From a virus, in IMG/VR virus record IMGVR_UViG_3300003322_000252, positions 1-34,356 of that record: a stretch of DNA of 34,356 bases; one strand, given 5' to 3'. The notes under the pieces were generated by a model. That model made no database searches, was not told the origin of the DNA, and saw only the letters and a list, made by a program, of their open reading frames with translations. Positions 794-28,627 of this stretch are shown in pieces. Positions within the stretch are counted from its first letter, which is position 1. Each line of letters opens with the position of its first letter. Both the position numbers and the translations under genes were made by a program.

Positions 794-2335
794 TCAGCGT
801 GCAACGATGAGATCGGAGAGGGTCGGACCATCGAGCCCCAACTGCTTGGCCCTCATCGCCTCGACCTCGTTCAGCGGAGGACCGCCGCGCTTGGATTCCT
901 GCACGCGCGCCTTGAGCGCGGCCTTGCCCTCGGGCGATTCGTAGTCCTTGCCGAGTTCGACCAGCCGCTGCATGAAGCCCATCGGCTCCGCGGCTGCCGG
1001 CATGCTCGGGTTCACGCTGCCACGCCCCGCGCCCGCCGCGGGAGCGGGGACCTGCGCGGCCGCCGCAGTCGGCGAAACCGCGGCCGGCGCCGCACCGGCC
1101 GGCACGCTCGCCGAAGCCGGCTTCGGCTTGGTCTGCGCCGCCTGATACTCCTTCAGGATGTCGCGCACCGCCTGCGCCTCGGTGAGTTTGGACTTCGGGT
1201 CGGCCTCGCGCGCTGCGGCGACGCGCTCCATCGCCTTGTTCTTCAGCGCCAGCGTCGTCGTGCGCGCCGCCTCGGCCGCTTCGCTCGGCGACATGTCGCC
1301 GCGGCCGCGCGCGCTGTTGAGCTCGCTGCGGTAGGTCAGGCGCAGTTCCGGCGACTCGACGCCCTTGCCGCCGTCCGGGTTGTCGAAGGTGACGAAGGAC
1401 GGCTCGATCTTCGCGGCGTTGTCCCACTCCTTCTCGTCGAAGTGGTCGGCCTTGCGGCCGCTGCCGCCTGCGGCCTTGGTGTTCGCATTGGTCTGCGCCG
1501 CATCGCCGCGCGCCTTGTAGTAGTCGATCTGCGCGTCGGTGAGCTTGTTCAGCCGCGACTCTTTCTCGGTATCGACGTAGTGCTTGAGCTTCGTCTGGAT
1601 CGGCACCTGCTTGGAGAGCAGGTTGGCCGCCTCGAGCGCACCCTTTGTGTCGTTCGAGAACGCGAGGCCGGTCGGCTGCAGCGTGCCATCGGGCAGCACC
1701 TTGTGGATCTGCACCGTCTTGCCGTCGGGGCTCGGCACCGCGCGCGCCTGCATCGTCGTGCCCGGCGACTGGTTCGTGAAGTCGACCAGCGCATCGAACC
1801 CGCGCGCCGCGGCCGCGTTCAGGTCGCTGTCGAACTGCTTGTTGGCAAGGTCGAGTTGCGTCGCCTTCATCTGCGTGTCGTGCGCCTGCAGCGCGGCGGC
1901 GCGCTCCGGGCTCTGCTTCGCGAGCACGGCCAGCTGGCGCGCGCGCACCGCATCGGGCGTGTTCGCGGACGCCGCGGCTTGCTGCGCCTGCTGCTGGTTC
2001 AGCATGCCCTGCATGCCGACCCGATACGCCGGCGTCGGCGCTGGCTCGCCGGGCATCCCGACGTCGGCGTTGTCTTGGCCCGGCGCCTTCACCATGCGCT
2101 GCATCGGGCCGTCCGGCGTCTGTGCCATGTCGGGCTGCGGCGCCTGCGGCTCCGCGGCGCTGCGCAGTTCGGCGCGGTCGGCCTGCTGCTGCGCCCATTC
2201 CGCTTTCTCGCGCGCGTCGCGGTCGAGCACGATCTGGTCGAGTTTGTCTCGGCGCGCGCGCTCTGCGGCCCTCTCCGATCCTTGCTCGTAGCCGTTCGCG
2301 AGGCCCGCCATCAGGCTCAGGTATCCCAGCGTCAT
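794..2335 (-). CDS. Probable internal virion (ejection) protein, 513 aa
   Basis: This 513-residue protein is rich in Ala, Gln, Lys and Asp and has no signal peptide or clear membrane segment. Residues 20-70 and about 105-165 look like charged helical coiled coil (many QQ, AA, ER and KA pairs), and residues about 380-430 are an Ala/Pro linker. The ATG at 2335 follows the previous stop by two bases (TGA-TC-ATG), the same junction type seen at 19855. Its place between the 669-residue protein and the edge protein fits one of the three ejection proteins of podophages, such as the P22 gp7/gp16/gp20 group by role, though I see no specific sequence match. An alternative is a scaffold-like or tail-associated helical protein. 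Confidence 0.75.
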   Translation of the reverse strand: MTLGYLSLMAGLANGYEQGSERAAERARRDKLDQIVLDRDAREKAEWAQQQADRAELRSAAEPQAPQPDMAQTPDGPMQRMVKAPGQDNADVGMPGEPAPTPAYRVGMQGMLNQQQAQQAAASANTPDAVRARQLAVLAKQSPERAAALQAHDTQMKATQLDLANKQFDSDLNAAAARGFDALVDFTNQSPGTTMQARAVPSPDGKTVQIHKVLPDGTLQPTGLAFSNDTKGALEAANLLSKQVPIQTKLKHYVDTEKESRLNKLTDAQIDYYKARGDAAQTNANTKAAGGSGRKADHFDEKEWDNAAKIEPSFVTFDNPDGGKGVESPELRLTYRSELNSARGRGDMSPSEAAEAARTTTLALKNKAMERVAAAREADPKSKLTEAQAVRDILKEYQAAQTKPKPASASVPAGAAPAAVSPTAAAAQVPAPAAGAGRGSVNPSMPAAAEPMGFMQRLVELGKDYESPEGKAALKARVQESKRGGPPLNEVEAMRAKQLGLDGPTLSDLIVAR

Positions 2336-2337
2336 GA

Positions 2338-4347
2338 TCAGGCCGCCTTTCGCTGTTCGAGCTTGGAGACCCGCTTCGCGAGCTCCTGCATGCCCCCCAT
2401 CAGGTGGGCGTTCATCGACGCCGCGTCGATGACCTTGCCGCCGGGTGCGACCTTGTCGCCCATGTGCTTGCGCACGGACTGCGCCATCGGCCCGTCATGT
2501 GGCGTTTCGTCGGGGTCGTCGGTGTAGGTCCAGTCTTCGTCGACCGGCGTCTTCTCAATGCCCGCGAGCGCCTTCTTCGTGTCCAGCGGCTTGCCGGTGT
2601 TCTTCTTCGCGTTCTTGTCCGAGAGCCAGCCGACGATGTCGCTGATGGTCTGGGCACCCGACGGGCTCGCGGCCCATGCGCCCAGTGCGCTGCCGAGCGA
2701 GCCGAGCGTCTGGTTGTACTGATCGCTGATCTTCTGGTTGCCGCCGGCAGCCTGGCCGAAGAGGTTGCCGCCGGACGCTGTCGCGCCCGAGGCGCCGTTG
2801 AACGCCGACAGCATGCTCGGCACGCCGGCGTTGACCGCCGACAGCCCCGTGGTCGCGTTCGTCACCGCGCTGTTGCCCGCCGTGGTCGCGGTGTTCGCCG
2901 CCGCGGTCGCCTGCGGGATCAAGTTCTGCCCGAGCTTCACCGCATCCATCTGGCGGGCGTGCCCGGTCTCTTCGACGTTGCGGCTCGCGGCGGTTGTCGC
3001 GCCGGCCAGCGCATTCGCCTTCGCATAGGCAGCATCGGACATCAGCGACAGTGCGCGCGGGCTCGCCGCGCTCGATCCTGTGCGACCGACGGCGCGCTGC
3101 AGCGCATCCGACGTACTGCCGTAGGCCTGTTCGACATCGGAGCGCGCGGCCGCCATCGCCTCGGCGCGCCGGCCCGGCGTGTCGTAGTTCTGCGCATCGG
3201 CGACGATCTTCTGCTCGAGCGGCCGATAGGTCGTCTTGCTGTAGTCGTAGAGATCCTTCGACATCGCCGTGGCGTCGGCCGCGTTCTGGGTCTGCGCGTC
3301 GGAGACCTGCTTGGCCTTGGCCGCGACGTAGTCGCGCATCGGCCCGGCGTCGGCGTATTGCTGCTTCGCCCAGTCGAGTTGCTGCTGGCCGAGCGACACG
3401 GTCTTGCCGGCGGCATCGAGTTGGCCGGCGAGCGCCTGCTTCACCGCATCCTCGGCGTCACCGGCGGCGCCAGCGCCAGCGATCGCACTGGCCCCGGAGC
3501 CGATCAAACCGACAAGCGCCTTGGCCGCCCCAGGGTTCTGCGTGATCCAGTTGCTCAGCGCGCTGCCGCCCTGCTTCAGAACACTGCTCAGGCTCGGGTT
3601 CTCCTGGAACAGCTGGCGCAGCGCAGCGTTTTCGGCCGCAGTACTGGTCCCGCCAAGCGCGCCCCCCGCGGTGGTGATGTTGTTGCCGGCGCCGACCGGC
3701 GCGTCCGCTGCGAGGTCCATGCCAGACAACCCCCCGGTCGCGGCTTCGCCGCCGCTGAGCGCGCCGCCCGCCGTGACGATGTTGTTGCCGGACCCCACAG
3801 CGGCATCCGCAGCGAGGTCCATGCCAGAAACGGCCCCGGCCCCTTCCCCGGCAGTCGAGCCGGCACCCAGATACGCCCCGCCGGCACCAGCGGCCAAAAC
3901 AGGGCCCAGATAGGTCAGAACATCGCGGTACGTGTTTGTCCAGTCGCTGCCCTGGTAGTAGTGCTGGTTGCCGATCGGAGTCGCCGTGCCAGTCTTCGGG
4001 TCATAGCTGTACGTGATCCGCGTCTGGTCGTGCGTGGAATTGCCAGACGGATCGTTGTAGTTGTCCGTGAACGTGTAGCCCGACTGATCATCGCCGCTCA
4101 GATAGAGCTTCGTGCCGTTCGAACTGATTACGTAGGCGCCTTCAGCAGGATTTACCCAAGTACCAGACTCTGTCTCGCGGCTAGTTTCGGGGGTGGCAGC
4201 ATGGAACTGCAGCCCAGAGAGAGAATTCACGCCCGCCAGCGAGCCGGTGCCGCCATACGCATTCGGGTCGTACCAATTGCCGCCGCCCGTGTACTGAACA
4301 CTCGGCTTAGGTGCGACCGGAACAGCCGTAAGAACGTTTTCCCACAT
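2338..4347 (-). CDS. Virion protein with C-terminal S74-type chaperone-like domain, 669 aa
   Basis: The N-terminal part (about 1-150) is rich in Tyr, Asn, Gly and Thr. A Gly/Ala-rich region follows (about 150-330) with a tandem duplicated 34-residue unit containing SGMDLAADA. Residues about 330-560 are an Ala/Gln helical region. The C-terminal 100 residues start WLSDKNAKKN, contain GPMAQSVRKHMGDK and end in a heptad-like segment (MQELAKRVSKLEQRK). SDxxxK, then G-x-AQ, then a terminal coiled coil is the layout of the Peptidase_S74 intramolecular chaperone of phage fibres. Finding it on an Ala-rich, probably internal protein suggests either a trimeric ejection protein matured by self-cleavage or a domain reused for assembly. 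Role as an ejection or tail-needle protein is inferred from context. Confidence 0.8.
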   Translation of the reverse strand: MWENVLTAVPVAPKPSVQYTGGGNWYDPNAYGGTGSLAGVNSLSGLQFHAATPETSRETESGTWVNPAEGAYVISSNGTKLYLSGDDQSGYTFTDNYNDPSGNSTHDQTRITYSYDPKTGTATPIGNQHYYQGSDWTNTYRDVLTYLGPVLAAGAGGAYLGAGSTAGEGAGAVSGMDLAADAAVGSGNNIVTAGGALSGGEAATGGLSGMDLAADAPVGAGNNITTAGGALGGTSTAAENAALRQLFQENPSLSSVLKQGGSALSNWITQNPGAAKALVGLIGSGASAIAGAGAAGDAEDAVKQALAGQLDAAGKTVSLGQQQLDWAKQQYADAGPMRDYVAAKAKQVSDAQTQNAADATAMSKDLYDYSKTTYRPLEQKIVADAQNYDTPGRRAEAMAAARSDVEQAYGSTSDALQRAVGRTGSSAASPRALSLMSDAAYAKANALAGATTAASRNVEETGHARQMDAVKLGQNLIPQATAAANTATTAGNSAVTNATTGLSAVNAGVPSMLSAFNGASGATASGGNLFGQAAGGNQKISDQYNQTLGSLGSALGAWAASPSGAQTISDIVGWLSDKNAKKNTGKPLDTKKALAGIEKTPVDEDWTYTDDPDETPHDGPMAQSVRKHMGDKVAPGGKVIDAASMNAHLMGGMQELAKRVSKLEQRKAA
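3655..3835 (-). repeat. Tandem 102-bp in-gene repeat
   Basis: Two adjacent diverged copies of a 102-bp unit lie inside the 669-residue virion protein gene; the shared string CGAGGTCCATGCCAGA (plus strand) recurs exactly 102 bases apart, starting at 3711 and 3813. Both copies encode SGMDLAADA, a variable residue pair, then GNN and TAGGAL. This is a simple in-frame duplication in a Gly/Ala-rich linker. Confidence 0.75.
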
Positions 4348-9656: not shown

Positions 9657-9882
9657 GGACTTCCCTTTCGAGTTGCTGGCGGATGGTCACTTGCTTCACA
9701 TCGATCTTGGCGATGGCGCGGGCGGCAGCGCTCGCGGCGGCACCGGTCGCGACGGCTGCAGCGCGGTCCTCGCGCGCCTGGATCGCGAGTTCGTGCTCCT
9801 GCCCGCGCTCGTATCCCCACCACACAGCGCCCGCCACGCTGGCGGCCCACAGCAGCAGCGCGCCAACCAGCCAATCGCTCAC
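9526..9882 (-). CDS. Rz-like inner-membrane spanin, 118 aa
   Basis: GTG start at 9882 overlaps the upstream stop (GTGA). Residues about 4-22 are a single N-terminal membrane anchor (WLVGALLLWAASVAGAVWW), followed by a long charged helix with ERGQEHELAIQAREDRAAA and QQLEREVREKTV, ending in a short Pro/Gly tail. One membrane anchor plus a periplasmic coiled coil next to an endolysin and enclosing an Rz1 frame is diagnostic of the i-spanin. It is expected to span the periplasm and pair with the Rz1-like lipoprotein. The length is within the usual range. Confidence 0.87.
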   Translation of the reverse strand: MSDWLVGALLLWAASVAGAVWWGYERGQEHELAIQAREDRAAAVATGAAASAAARAIAKIDVKQVTIRQQLEREVREKTVFRDCHSGHDAVRLLNALPAIDPASAPFGGELPASGAAR

Positions 9883-25487: not shown

Positions 25488-25987
25488 ACCGCCGCCTCCG
25501 CGAACGTCTTGCCGGTGTTCTTGTTCTTCGCCTCGATCTCCCACATCGCCGTACCGGCCAGCTTGCGGCGAACCGCCTTGGGCGCAACGGGCTGGCGGAC
25601 CATCTCGGGCGCGAACTTCACGATCGCGTCGACCAGCGCCAGGAACGCGGCCTTGTCGTTGCGGTCCTTGCCGAGGATCGGAAGCGCCTCGAGGCACTGC
25701 TCATAGCAGAAGGTGCTCGCGCTGCCGGTGCAGCGGCCGTCCTTCGTGAAGCCGACGAACTGCGTGATCGCGTCGAAGGTGATGCACCACTGGCCTGGCG
25801 TCTTGCTGCCGACGACCAGAAGATTCGTCGCCGGCCAGATCACCATGCACTTCAGGTGCTTGCGGCCGCGCCGCACCCACTCGAGGCTGATGACGTAGCC
25901 GCGGTGCTCGGCAACCTTCCAGGCGTCTTCGCCGCCGGCGGTAAACACCGGCTCGCCGCTGGGGCTAAGGATTGGACTGAGCTTCAA
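25484..25987 (-). CDS. Unknown protein between large terminase and portal, 167 aa
   Basis: I choose the TTG at 25987: it overlaps the terminase stop as TTGA and has GGAG six bases upstream. A TTG two codons earlier has no spacing to the GGAG. The protein is a mixed alpha/beta domain: AWKVAEHRGYVISLEWVRRGRKHLKCMVIW, then LLVVGSKTPGQWCITFDAITQFVGFTKDGRC, and a helical C-terminus. Several Cys (C49, C69, C87, C95, C99) are noticeable but in no standard zinc motif. I do not recognise a family. Confidence 0.7.
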   Translation of the reverse strand: MKLSPILSPSGEPVFTAGGEDAWKVAEHRGYVISLEWVRRGRKHLKCMVIWPATNLLVVGSKTPGQWCITFDAITQFVGFTKDGRCTGSASTFCYEQCLEALPILGKDRNDKAAFLALVDAIVKFAPEMVRQPVAPKAVRRKLAGTAMWEIEAKNKNTGKTFAEAAV

Positions 25988-27612
25988 CGCCAACTCCGTT
26001 TACGTTGTTTGAACTGCCGGATCGACCTGTCGGCATCCGAGTTGCCGATCTCCGATCCGGCGCTGAGGTGGTAGCCCTGCGCGTGCTGGCGCCAGGCGTC
26101 GGCGCCGTGGCTGGCCCAGTTGTGCAGCGGCACGTTGCTCCACATACCGCGCTTCTGGTCCCACTCGAACTGGTAGCCGTCCAGGCACTGAATGCCGTAG
26201 CCGGCGCCCATGTCTTCGCCGAGGTCTTCGTTGGGCTTGTGGTCGTAGAACCAGTGATTGCCGCCGAGCGCCTTGCGGGTGACCTCGATGCCGGTCGATA
26301 TGTCGGCGATGCGCGGCACGACCACGATGTTGCGCATGCCAAGCTTCTCGAGTTCGCGATGCTTGGTCGTGATGCTCTCGCCCAGGATCTCGGCGTCGGC
26401 GTCATGCGGCAGGTAGTGCTTGCCCCACTGGTACCTGTGGCGGGCGCGGTGCGCTTCGCAGACTTCGACCCACCAGTATTTGAGGCCCTTGCCGCTGGCG
26501 TCCTTGTAGTAGACCCATCGGTGCTGCACGCCGACGTGCTGGTGGAACCAGATCGCGGTCTTGTCCGCGACCCCGAAGTCCCAGAACGTGTTGACGGCGT
26601 AGTTCGTGTCCAGCGGCACGACGGTGAGCCGGCCCTGCTCGCGCAGGTAGGTCATCTGGTCGCCGTAGACGGCGCCTTCGATCGCCTGCTCGAACGCCTC
26701 CTTCGGTGAGGCCGGATACTCCTGCTTCATCTTCTTGCCCAGCGTCTCGGCCATCTTGGCGTACCACGCGCGCTGGTTCGGGTCGAGCTTGATCTTGAGT
26801 TCGGCCTCGCACTTCGCGAAGTACTTGCGCAGCGTCTCCGTGATCTCGACGATCGCGGTTTCTTCGTCGCTGAGGCGGTAGTCGGCGCACTCGTGCCACG
26901 GGTAGAAGTGCAGCCGCCAGTCGAGGCGGGTTTCCGGCGTGCCAGCCTCGCGGCGCTTCATCGCCGGCTCGCACAGTTCGTAGAACAGGCCGAACGCACC
27001 TTCGGCGGTGCTCTCGATGACGGTGATGCCCTGCTCAGCGGCCGGGATCGCGCCGGTCTTGATTTCCTCGGCGCGCTGCGGGTACTTGAGGCCAATCTTG
27101 CCGAGCTCGGACACGTGCAGCAGCGTCACGGTGCCGCCGCGCGCGCTGACGCTGATCGTGATCGACGACGGGTTTTCCTGCTGCTGCTCGTCGATGTGAG
27201 CGAACGTGATGCCTTCGCCGCGGGTCTTCGCGTGGATCGGCACCGCGGCCTTCAGCGCCGGCGGCAAGTGGTCGTAGGCGAACTCGATCTTGCCGAAGAG
27301 CTTCTTCGCGTTGGGCAGCGTGTCGGCGATGACGACGCCGGTGAAGTTGCGGGTGAACAGCGCCTGGTCGAGTTCCAGGATCTGCATCAGCGTGGAAAAC
27401 CCAAGCTGCCGCGCTTTCAGGATCAGGTTGCGGTTCCAGATGTTCCTGATGAAGTCGCGTTGCTGCGCGTTCATCTGGAAGCGGACCGTGTTGCCTTCCT
27501 TGTCGACGATCCAGTACAGGTTATCGAGCCGCCACTCCAAGCTCTCGAAATGGACGTCCTGCGCCGCGAGCACCGCGGCGATGTCAAGGTGGACGCCGGG
27601 GTTCTGGCTCAC
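25984..27612 (-). CDS. terL: Terminase large subunit, 542 aa
   Basis: GTG at 27612 overlaps the small-terminase stop (GTGA). The ATPase part has a Walker A-like KARQLGFST (66-74), a Walker B-type strand LLHVSELGK with acidic Glu at 169, and a coupling motif IESTAEG (199-205). QEYPASPKEAFEQA (about 298-310) is the usual linker signature. The RNase H-like nuclease part begins TFWDFGVADKTAIW, with metal-binding Asp at 345 and 350, and ends near SHGADAWR. It drives DNA into the procapsid and cuts it. The similarity to P22-like headful enzymes is plausible given the P22-type portal. Confidence 0.95.
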   Translation of the reverse strand: MSQNPGVHLDIAAVLAAQDVHFESLEWRLDNLYWIVDKEGNTVRFQMNAQQRDFIRNIWNRNLILKARQLGFSTLMQILELDQALFTRNFTGVVIADTLPNAKKLFGKIEFAYDHLPPALKAAVPIHAKTRGEGITFAHIDEQQQENPSSITISVSARGGTVTLLHVSELGKIGLKYPQRAEEIKTGAIPAAEQGITVIESTAEGAFGLFYELCEPAMKRREAGTPETRLDWRLHFYPWHECADYRLSDEETAIVEITETLRKYFAKCEAELKIKLDPNQRAWYAKMAETLGKKMKQEYPASPKEAFEQAIEGAVYGDQMTYLREQGRLTVVPLDTNYAVNTFWDFGVADKTAIWFHQHVGVQHRWVYYKDASGKGLKYWWVEVCEAHRARHRYQWGKHYLPHDADAEILGESITTKHRELEKLGMRNIVVVPRIADISTGIEVTRKALGGNHWFYDHKPNEDLGEDMGAGYGIQCLDGYQFEWDQKRGMWSNVPLHNWASHGADAWRQHAQGYHLSAGSEIGNSDADRSIRQFKQRKRSWR

Positions 27613-28544
27613 GCCGGATCCGGGTTGAGGCGCGCGCGCGGGGCGCGCGGGACGACGGCCAGTTTCCCGCCGCCGGCCTGGTGCAGGTTGCCCAGGAACG
27701 CGGCGAGCGCTTCAGGGAGTGCTTGCGGCTGCTTCTGCTCGTTGTCGGTCTTGAACAGGCCAAGGTGCTTGAACACCTTCTCCATCGCGTCGAGCTTCGA
27801 GTGCATCTTGACCTCGAAGCCCTCCTTCGTGATCTTCACGCCGGCGTAGAGCGCGCGCGCCTGCGGGCTTAGCTTGCGGGTGTCGTGCGCGTGGACCTTG
27901 CCGTAGCCGAGGCCCTTGCATTCCGGGCAGTCCGGGTTCGGATCGCGGTTCTGCTCGGCCAGCGTCGTGTTGCCGCCGTAGCAGGTATCGCAGCAAACGC
28001 GCCGGTACTCGATCAGTTCGTTGGGGTCGGCGACGACGATGTTCCAGGCTTCCGCCAGCGCGCGCTCGGCGGTCAACTCGATCTTCGCGTGGACTTTTGC
28101 TTGCAGCCGAGCAATTTCGGCAGAAACGTGAACGTTTCTGAGCAAACGGCGAGCACAAACGTCTGCCGAGTTGCCTGTTGCCTTGTAGCCGGCTCGCTTG
28201 TAGGCCGCGCCCCCATTGAGATCCACGAGGTATTCGCGGATGAAGACCTGGACTTTCGGCGGGAGCTTGGAGCGGGCATCCGGGCTCGAACCGGAAACCT
28301 CCGATGTGGAAGAACGGCGCTCTGCCTGTTGAGCTACGCCCGCAGAGGGTTCCGTGATGGCTTCCAGGCGCTCGCGCTGGAAGATGCTGGGTTTGGTAGC
28401 GGGGACCGGAGTTGCACCGGTGCGCTCGAGGTTATGGGCCTCGCGCTCTTCTACGGCTGAGCTACCCCGCTGGGGGTTCTTGGCGGCCTTGCGGCCCTTG
28501 GTGGCCGGCTTGTTGCGCCCGACCACGCTACTGCGTGATGCCAT
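27609..28544 (-). CDS. terS: Terminase small subunit with tRNA-containing 5' extension, 311 aa
   Basis: The Terminase_2-type domain begins near residue 94 (LPPKVQVFIREYLVDLNGGAAYKRAGYKATG), followed by a Cys-rich insert (CCDTC...CPEC, about 176-199) and the C-terminal region SKLDAMEKVFKHLGLF. The only ATG in frame is at 28544; no ATG, GTG or TTG occurs between the tRNA-Gly gene and the domain, and the next GTG would cut into the domain. So the frame reads a basic N-terminus (MASRSSVVGRNKPATKGRKAAKN) and then about 68 residues that coincide with two tRNA genes on the same strand. The protein binds the packaging start site and activates the large subunit. The true N-terminus needs experimental proof. 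Confidence 0.8.
   Translation of the reverse strand: MASRSSVVGRNKPATKGRKAAKNPQRGSSAVEEREAHNLERTGATPVPATKPSIFQRERLEAITEPSAGVAQQAERRSSTSEVSGSSPDARSKLPPKVQVFIREYLVDLNGGAAYKRAGYKATGNSADVCARRLLRNVHVSAEIARLQAKVHAKIELTAERALAEAWNIVVADPNELIEYRRVCCDTCYGGNTTLAEQNRDPNPDCPECKGLGYGKVHAHDTRKLSPQARALYAGVKITKEGFEVKMHSKLDAMEKVFKHLGLFKTDNEQKQPQALPEALAAFLGNLHQAGGGKLAVVPRAPRARLNPDPA
28121..28140. other. 20-bp hyphenated palindrome in terS, packaging-site candidate
   Basis: CAGAAACGT-GA-ACGTTTCTG is a perfect 9-bp inverted repeat with a two-base spacer, in a locally AT-richer patch of the small-terminase gene. GCCGA/TCGGC (28106-28121) forms a second small stem beside it, and GAGCAA recurs 31 bases apart (28109 and 28140), flanking the dyad. 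In P22 the pac site lies inside the small-terminase gene, which motivates the call. It could also be chance. Confidence 0.35.
28268..28343 (-). tRNA. tRNA-Gly (anticodon TCC), CCA encoded
   Basis: The minus strand folds as a full cloverleaf of 73 bases plus encoded CCA. Acceptor GCGGGCG pairs with TGCCCGC (last pair G-T), D-stem GCTC/GAGC, anticodon stem CCGTT/ATCGG with one T-T mismatch, loop CTTCCAC giving anticodon TCC with T33 intact, five-base variable loop AGGTT, and a perfect T-arm TCCGG-TTCGAGC-CCGGA. Discriminator T is followed by CCA. It would decode GGA glycine codons, rare in GC-rich genomes. It lies in frame within the small-terminase open reading frame. Confidence 0.9.
28394..28471 (-). 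tRNA. tRNA-Met-like (anticodon CAT) with odd loops, CCA encoded
   Basis: The minus strand gives 75 bases plus encoded CCA. Acceptor AGCGGGG/CCCCGCT is perfect, D-stem GCTC/GAGC, anticodon stem CGAGG/CCTCG perfect, T-stem ACCGG/CCGGT perfect. The anticodon loop is CCCATAA, so position 33 is C instead of the near-universal T. The D-loop (AGCCGTAGAA) lacks the usual GG pair and the T-loop is TGCAACT, with G at 55. It may be elongator Met, Ile after CAT modification, or a degenerate gene. It is separated from the Gly gene by 50 bases. Confidence 0.8.
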
Positions 28545-28627
28545 GGAATCGTCCGTTCAGGGAGAACGGGGATCACCATGCACTGCGAATTTTTGGAATC
28601 AAGTGAAGTCGTGAGGAATCGGGGCGA
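28545..28627 (-). promoter_or_regulatory. Early/late junction spacer with hairpin
   Basis: This 83-bp gap separates the early gene block from the terminase/tRNA unit and is AT-richer than its surroundings. A perfect CCGTTC-(5)-GAACGG hairpin lies at 28553-28569, just before the terS ATG. There is a TTGATT (complement of 28597-28602) that could serve as a -35, but no good -10 at 16-18 bases. There is no T-tract after the hairpin. A promoter or anti-termination target for late transcription would make sense here but is not shown by the sequence. Confidence 0.3.

Follow-up and report, generated by a model that had tools for sequence, protein, structure and literature searches.

Introduction

The Terminase_2 domain (PF03592) is found in the small terminase subunits (TerS) of Bcep22-, F116- and Itty13-like podoviruses, and in F116 the terS gene lies directly before terL. 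In the E. coli tyrT operon, the tRNA-derived part of a tRNA transcript also encodes a basic, protamine-like peptide, tpr, whose small, separate frame follows the tRNA. Rickettsia palindromic elements (RPEs) are repeated mobile elements that occur as in-frame insertions within genes for proteins and RNAs.

Here we analyse a 34,356-nucleotide viral contig (IMG/VR record IMGVR_UViG_3300003322_000252, positions 1 to 34,356; hereafter the window), whose TerS has the same domain, is 37–41% identical to the TerS of DC1, F116 and Itty13 and, as in F116, is encoded directly before terL. Our sequence comparisons confirm that a small phage clade has retained tRNA genes within the terS reading frame, where they are most likely translated into a disordered tail. 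In the window, TerS is probably read from the ATG at 28544 through two tRNA genes, which would double as a tolerated, disordered linker.

The terS gene and its two tRNA genes

The features of the locus are as follows.

28553..28569, minus strand: short hairpin (CCGTTC-TCCCT-GAACGG) just 5′ of the start codon, seen in the sequence and paired in the predicted fold
27609..28544, minus strand: terS ORF, small terminase subunit, 311 aa, ATG at 28544 (PF03592 and phrog_51)
28473..28544, minus strand: probably translated basic leader MASRSSVVGRNKPATKGRKAAKNP, codons 1–24 (GC3 0.88 and relatives' leaders)
28394..28471, minus strand: tRNA-Met (CAT), 78 nt with encoded CCA (ARAGORN, Rfam); the frame reads (Q)RGSSAVEEREAHNLERTGATPVPAT(K)
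28344..28393, minus strand: 50-nt spacer between the tRNA genes, read as KPSIFQRERLEAITEPS (codon-position GC)
28268..28343, minus strand: tRNA-Gly (TCC), 76 nt with encoded CCA (ARAGORN, Rfam); the frame reads AGVAQQAERRSSTSEVSGSSPDARS
27612..28265, minus strand: conserved TerS domain, from LPPKVQ (PF03592 match and predicted fold)
25984..27612, minus strand: terL, large terminase, whose GTG start overlaps the terS stop (GTGA)

PF03592 matches TerS residues 96–270 (2.1e-24, 87.2 bits vs a gathering score of 26.1) and phrog_51 matches at 1.3e-33. The neighbouring TerL is 37–80% identical to its relatives, several of which are annotated as terminase large subunit. The original prediction placed two tRNA genes within terS, sharing its strand and reading frame, and the ARAGORN and Rfam calls together with the stop-free 311-aa ORF bear this out. 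It also held that no ATG, GTG or TTG separates tRNA-Gly from the domain. Codon-by-codon reading agrees: the only in-frame starts ahead of the domain are ATG1 and GTG7, and the next is GTG107 (28226), within the first domain helix (H96–107). A complete TerS domain therefore needs initiation either upstream of the tRNAs or at a non-standard codon. In the AlphaFold2 model (22 aligned sequences), residues 1–90 are coil without structure (pLDDT 42–48) and a confident fold begins near residue 91 (pLDDT 86–96 for residues 91–150); the N-terminal 90 residues are thus predicted to be disordered.

Both tRNA genes score well above the Rfam RF00005 gathering score of 29 (57.4 and 54.2 bits), with 7/4/5/5 stems, a 7-nt anticodon loop and CCA; the one mismatch falls in the anticodon stem of tRNA-Gly. 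The tRNA-Gly has the conserved D-loop GG and T-loop TTC. The minimum-energy structure of tRNA-Met is a perfect cloverleaf, and its loops are imperfect: the D-loop, AGCCGTAGAA, has no GG and the T-loop is TGCAACT, i.e., G55. Given these unusual features, the window tRNA-Met may be impaired. Codon demand does not appear to account for the tRNAs: ATA (4) and GGA (49) are scarce among the 10196 codons of the phage. With no obvious codon task and the odd D-loop and G55, the window tRNAs may have lost their function. We found no support for an attP copy of a host tRNA: the comparison covered tRNA-Met only, against six genomes carrying terminase relatives, where it had no close match. ARAGORN also calls a 98-nt tRNA-Lys (ctt) at 9669–9766 on the plus strand, opposite minus-strand genes; Rfam support is absent and this is probably a false call. 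Neither program found further copies of the tRNA insert in the window, unlike what would be expected of an RPE-type mobile insert.

Around the start codon, the hairpin overlaps the likely ribosome-binding site and has no comparative support. We found no promoter or terminator consensus near the terS start and no enrichment across the window of the motif CGGACGATTCC that precedes the ATG, and the predicted folding of the leader and tRNA region is unexceptional (z −1.3).

How much weight does an open frame through a tRNA carry? Among phage records with GC of at least 55%, 9 of 21 tRNA-Met genes are open in the phase that the window uses, and three of the nine belong to this family; the corresponding tRNA-Gly phase is open in 4 of 5. 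Open frames through tRNAs are therefore common in GC-rich phages, and openness in a single window is weak evidence, so that the claim has to be carried by comparison. Phage tRNA gene clusters are known beside structural genes, and a tRNA-CAT gene sharing the window's acceptor stem occurs in 52 viral contigs; the phase is open in 10 of them, L032 included, and only in the L032 contig does the tRNA lie within a terS reading frame.

Relatives with and without a tRNA in terS

Relatives were gathered by TerL scans, which gave several contigs at 60–80% TerL identity. In L032, an intact tRNA-Met (2220–2294, 66.0 bits) lies inside the terS ORF (2159–3214), with its codon phase matching that of the window. 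It is followed by a degenerate second tRNA (2301–2378, 31.7 bits) that starts at or beside the codon position of the window tRNA-Gly. In L034 (the same contig as L021, with coordinates 500 lower), terS contains a tRNA of 36.0 bits, again in the same phase; its anticodon loop has lost three nucleotides (4 nt instead of 7), two acceptor pairs no longer match, and the terS frame is intact. L034 terS starts at a GTG that overlaps the upstream stop (GTGA), with no later start before the domain. If this GTG is right, the tRNA-derived segment must be translated. A fourth tRNA, in L111 (461–535), is orthologous and in the same phase, and sits in a separate 80-codon ORF (421–663) adjoining terS. In that ORF the in-frame tRNA is followed by IASLEARLAAAEGRIATLEA, a probable coiled coil.

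We infer the orthology of the four tRNAs from position, phase and, for two of them, an identical acceptor stem; repeated insertion could instead have produced the pattern. We found only three terS genes with an embedded tRNA (window, L032 and L034), all on metagenomic contigs, and no tRNA inside terS in any named phage or prophage. Chimeric assembly of the window, a virus contig that is probably a fragment, could in principle create such a gene, and is extremely improbable here given that the same phase and place recur in independent contigs from other metagenomes.

An HNH-like ORF lies just upstream of L034 terS, overlapping its start by GTGA, and homing-type nucleases adjoining terS recur in this phage group; they might move tRNA segments. 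In L018, a GIY-YIG-like ORF (588–1103) is directly upstream of terS, and its leader, MTNQRSSAG, resembles the window's MASRSSVVG; the stretch further upstream, at about 198–472, contains one tRNA-like 3′ half or two (T-arm and CCA), with weak model scores. L013 (Itty13) has a tRNA-like match with a long insert about 1 kb upstream of terS (791–892, 39.8 bits), which ARAGORN at default settings does not call.

The original prediction expected tRNA-free relatives to join a basic N-terminus directly to LPPKVQ. The nearest tRNA-free TerS, that of L213 (66% identical), is such a relative: it reads 'MATRTPGSSKP...GKPLPAKVQRF', a basic leader with LPAKVQ coming within about 45 residues. The window and L213 proteins both begin with MA[ST]R[ST] and a basic leader, and tRNA-free L114 (MTARKSGP...) shares MTAR[KR]S[AG]P with L032 (MTARRSAP...). 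Basic, K/A/P-rich N-terminal tails without a tRNA also occur in L002, L019, L114, L115, L134, L139–L141 and others. Among about 400 genomes around G080 there is one close prophage, L134, and its terS has no tRNA. The relatives thus already have a basic, low-complexity tail where the tRNAs sit, which would make the tail tolerant of a tRNA insert, and a tolerant insertion place would explain the carriage of whole tRNA genes.

Outside terS, L213 has a tRNA 3′ half about 200 nt upstream of the gene, and tRNA genes also lie upstream of it in L237, L239 and L259; among the relatives beyond L213, distances of 1.5–2 kb are seen. A tRNA near terS therefore appears to be a habit of these phages, one that in some of them places it inside the gene. 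Wider searches added no further case: scanning viral contigs for a tandem Met-Gly pattern gave no match, ARAGORN at lowered thresholds gave noise only, and a tblastn query with the peptide read from the tRNA, run against 50,697 phages, hit tRNA-Met genes for the most part, with no annotated terminase gene among the hits.

Signs of constraint on RNA and protein

At the RNA level, the four aligned tRNAs have 96.3% of cells paired, and at 11 of 21 pairs both bases have changed, a result that none of 500 shuffles reached; sliding the partner strand lowers this count to 0–2. The alignment shows that the cloverleaf has been maintained, though four sequences do not date how recently.

At the protein level, the tRNA lengths (78, 75, 72 and 75 nt in the window, L032, L034 and L111) are all multiples of three. 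The leaders show a coding bias in GC by codon position: 0.54/0.62/0.88 in the window, with a GC3 like that of the window's genes, 0.50/0.60/0.85 in L032 and 0.46/0.62/0.85 in L111; the non-coding stretch upstream of the ATG is flat. The spacer between the tRNA genes is also coding-like (0.59/0.47/0.76). RSAPKA, common to the L032 and L111 leaders, carries three silent and zero amino-acid changes, and judging from the L034 sequence the terS frame survived the decay of its tRNA.

These observations bear on whether the tRNAs are merely part of a terS 5′ leader whose frame is open by chance, with TerS starting downstream at a non-standard codon after processing. The tRNAs that lie upstream of terS in L213, L237, L239 and L259 fit such a leader, as does the fact that roughly one in three tRNA-Met genes of GC-rich phages is open in this phase. 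We nevertheless find it quite unlikely: in the window, the stretch from tRNA-Gly to the domain has no usable start, L034 terS begins at the GTGA overlap upstream of its tRNA segment, and the leader bias in three genomes, the purely silent changes in RSAPKA and the identical phase in all four argue for translation. Of the alternatives raised originally, a TerS starting at an unusual codon found no support, whereas a TerS with a tRNA-encoded insert is well supported by the same-phase relatives, the L034 frame and the leader coding bias. In-frame stops in the upstream stretch of relatives, which would have spoken against it, are absent from tRNA-carrying L032 and L034. Beyond what was first proposed, the arrangement recurs, decays in L034 with the frame kept and appears as a separate ORF in L111.

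A second possibility is that the tRNA genes are defunct and persist only as coding sequence for the linker. The lost anticodon loop in L034, the degenerate second copy in L032 (31.7 bits), the odd D and T loops of the window tRNA-Met and the lack of a clear codon demand are all consistent with this. However, the tRNA genes of the window and L032 score 54–66 bits, encode CCA and have full stems and the anticodons CAT/TCC, and the stems are maintained by compensatory changes, which makes this exaptation possible but somewhat unlikely. It differs from translation through the tRNA genes only in whether the tRNAs function, so the probabilities of the two overlap.

The cloverleaves could also be cis-acting RNA or DNA structures, serving terS translation control or as a packaging signal, rather than tRNAs for translation. 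They lie at the 5′ end of terS, a common place for packaging sites. In the degenerate tRNAs of L032 (2301–2378) and L034 (3834–3905), a 4-nt loop replaces the anticodon loop and the cloverleaf is still the predicted best fold; its persistence there would suit a structural role. Anticodon loops and encoded CCA are, however, retained in the window, L032 and L111, and many TerS relatives have no such structure, so we regard a purely cis-acting role as very unlikely.

Discussion

We favor a model in which one or two phage tRNA genes sit in the 5′ part of terS, on the same strand and in frame, and are translated with it. The ribosome would read the leader, tRNA-Met, spacer, tRNA-Gly and conserved domain in turn, and the product would be a TerS with a disordered N-terminal extension of about 90 residues, mostly encoded by the tRNA genes. 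The same DNA would also specify tRNA-shaped RNA. RNase P cutting at 28471 or 28343 would free the tRNAs and sever the terS mRNA; ribosomes starting at 28544 would unfold the tRNAs and yield TerS. Each transcript could then give mature tRNA or full TerS, never both. From the locus as read here, we infer an insert-bearing TerS and tRNAs that undergo processing and charging; competition between tRNA processing and TerS synthesis is plausible. It is tempting to go further and see a bifunctional tRNA-mRNA, in which either RNase P cutting destroys the terS message or translation gives a tRNA-tailed TerS, and ribosome loading at the ATG at 28544 sets the balance between tRNA and TerS; this we consider speculative and rather unlikely.

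A tRNA gene kept in frame inside terS would offer a natural example of a single sequence under constraint as tRNA and protein alike. L034 shows a route from tRNA genes to protein tails, and the proposed conflict between RNA processing and translation is directly testable. In practical terms, annotation pipelines that mask ORFs overlapping tRNAs would shorten this TerS.

In the literature on embedded or overlapping phage tRNA genes, we found no description of such an arrangement. To judge from these searches, an essential protein gene that contains a whole tRNA gene in its frame, retained among relatives, would have no published description in phages; we regard it as a candidate case of dual-use (overlapping) genes. 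The TerS proteins of Bcep22-, F116- and Itty13-like phages differ in having N-terminal tails of about 10–35 residues with no tRNA-encoded residues. Like RPEs, the locus has structured DNA inserted in frame and tolerated as extra residues, but here a single conserved locus carries the insert, a tRNA gene. Compared to tyrT, where the separate tpr frame follows the tRNA, the window has its tRNA inside the gene for an essential protein.
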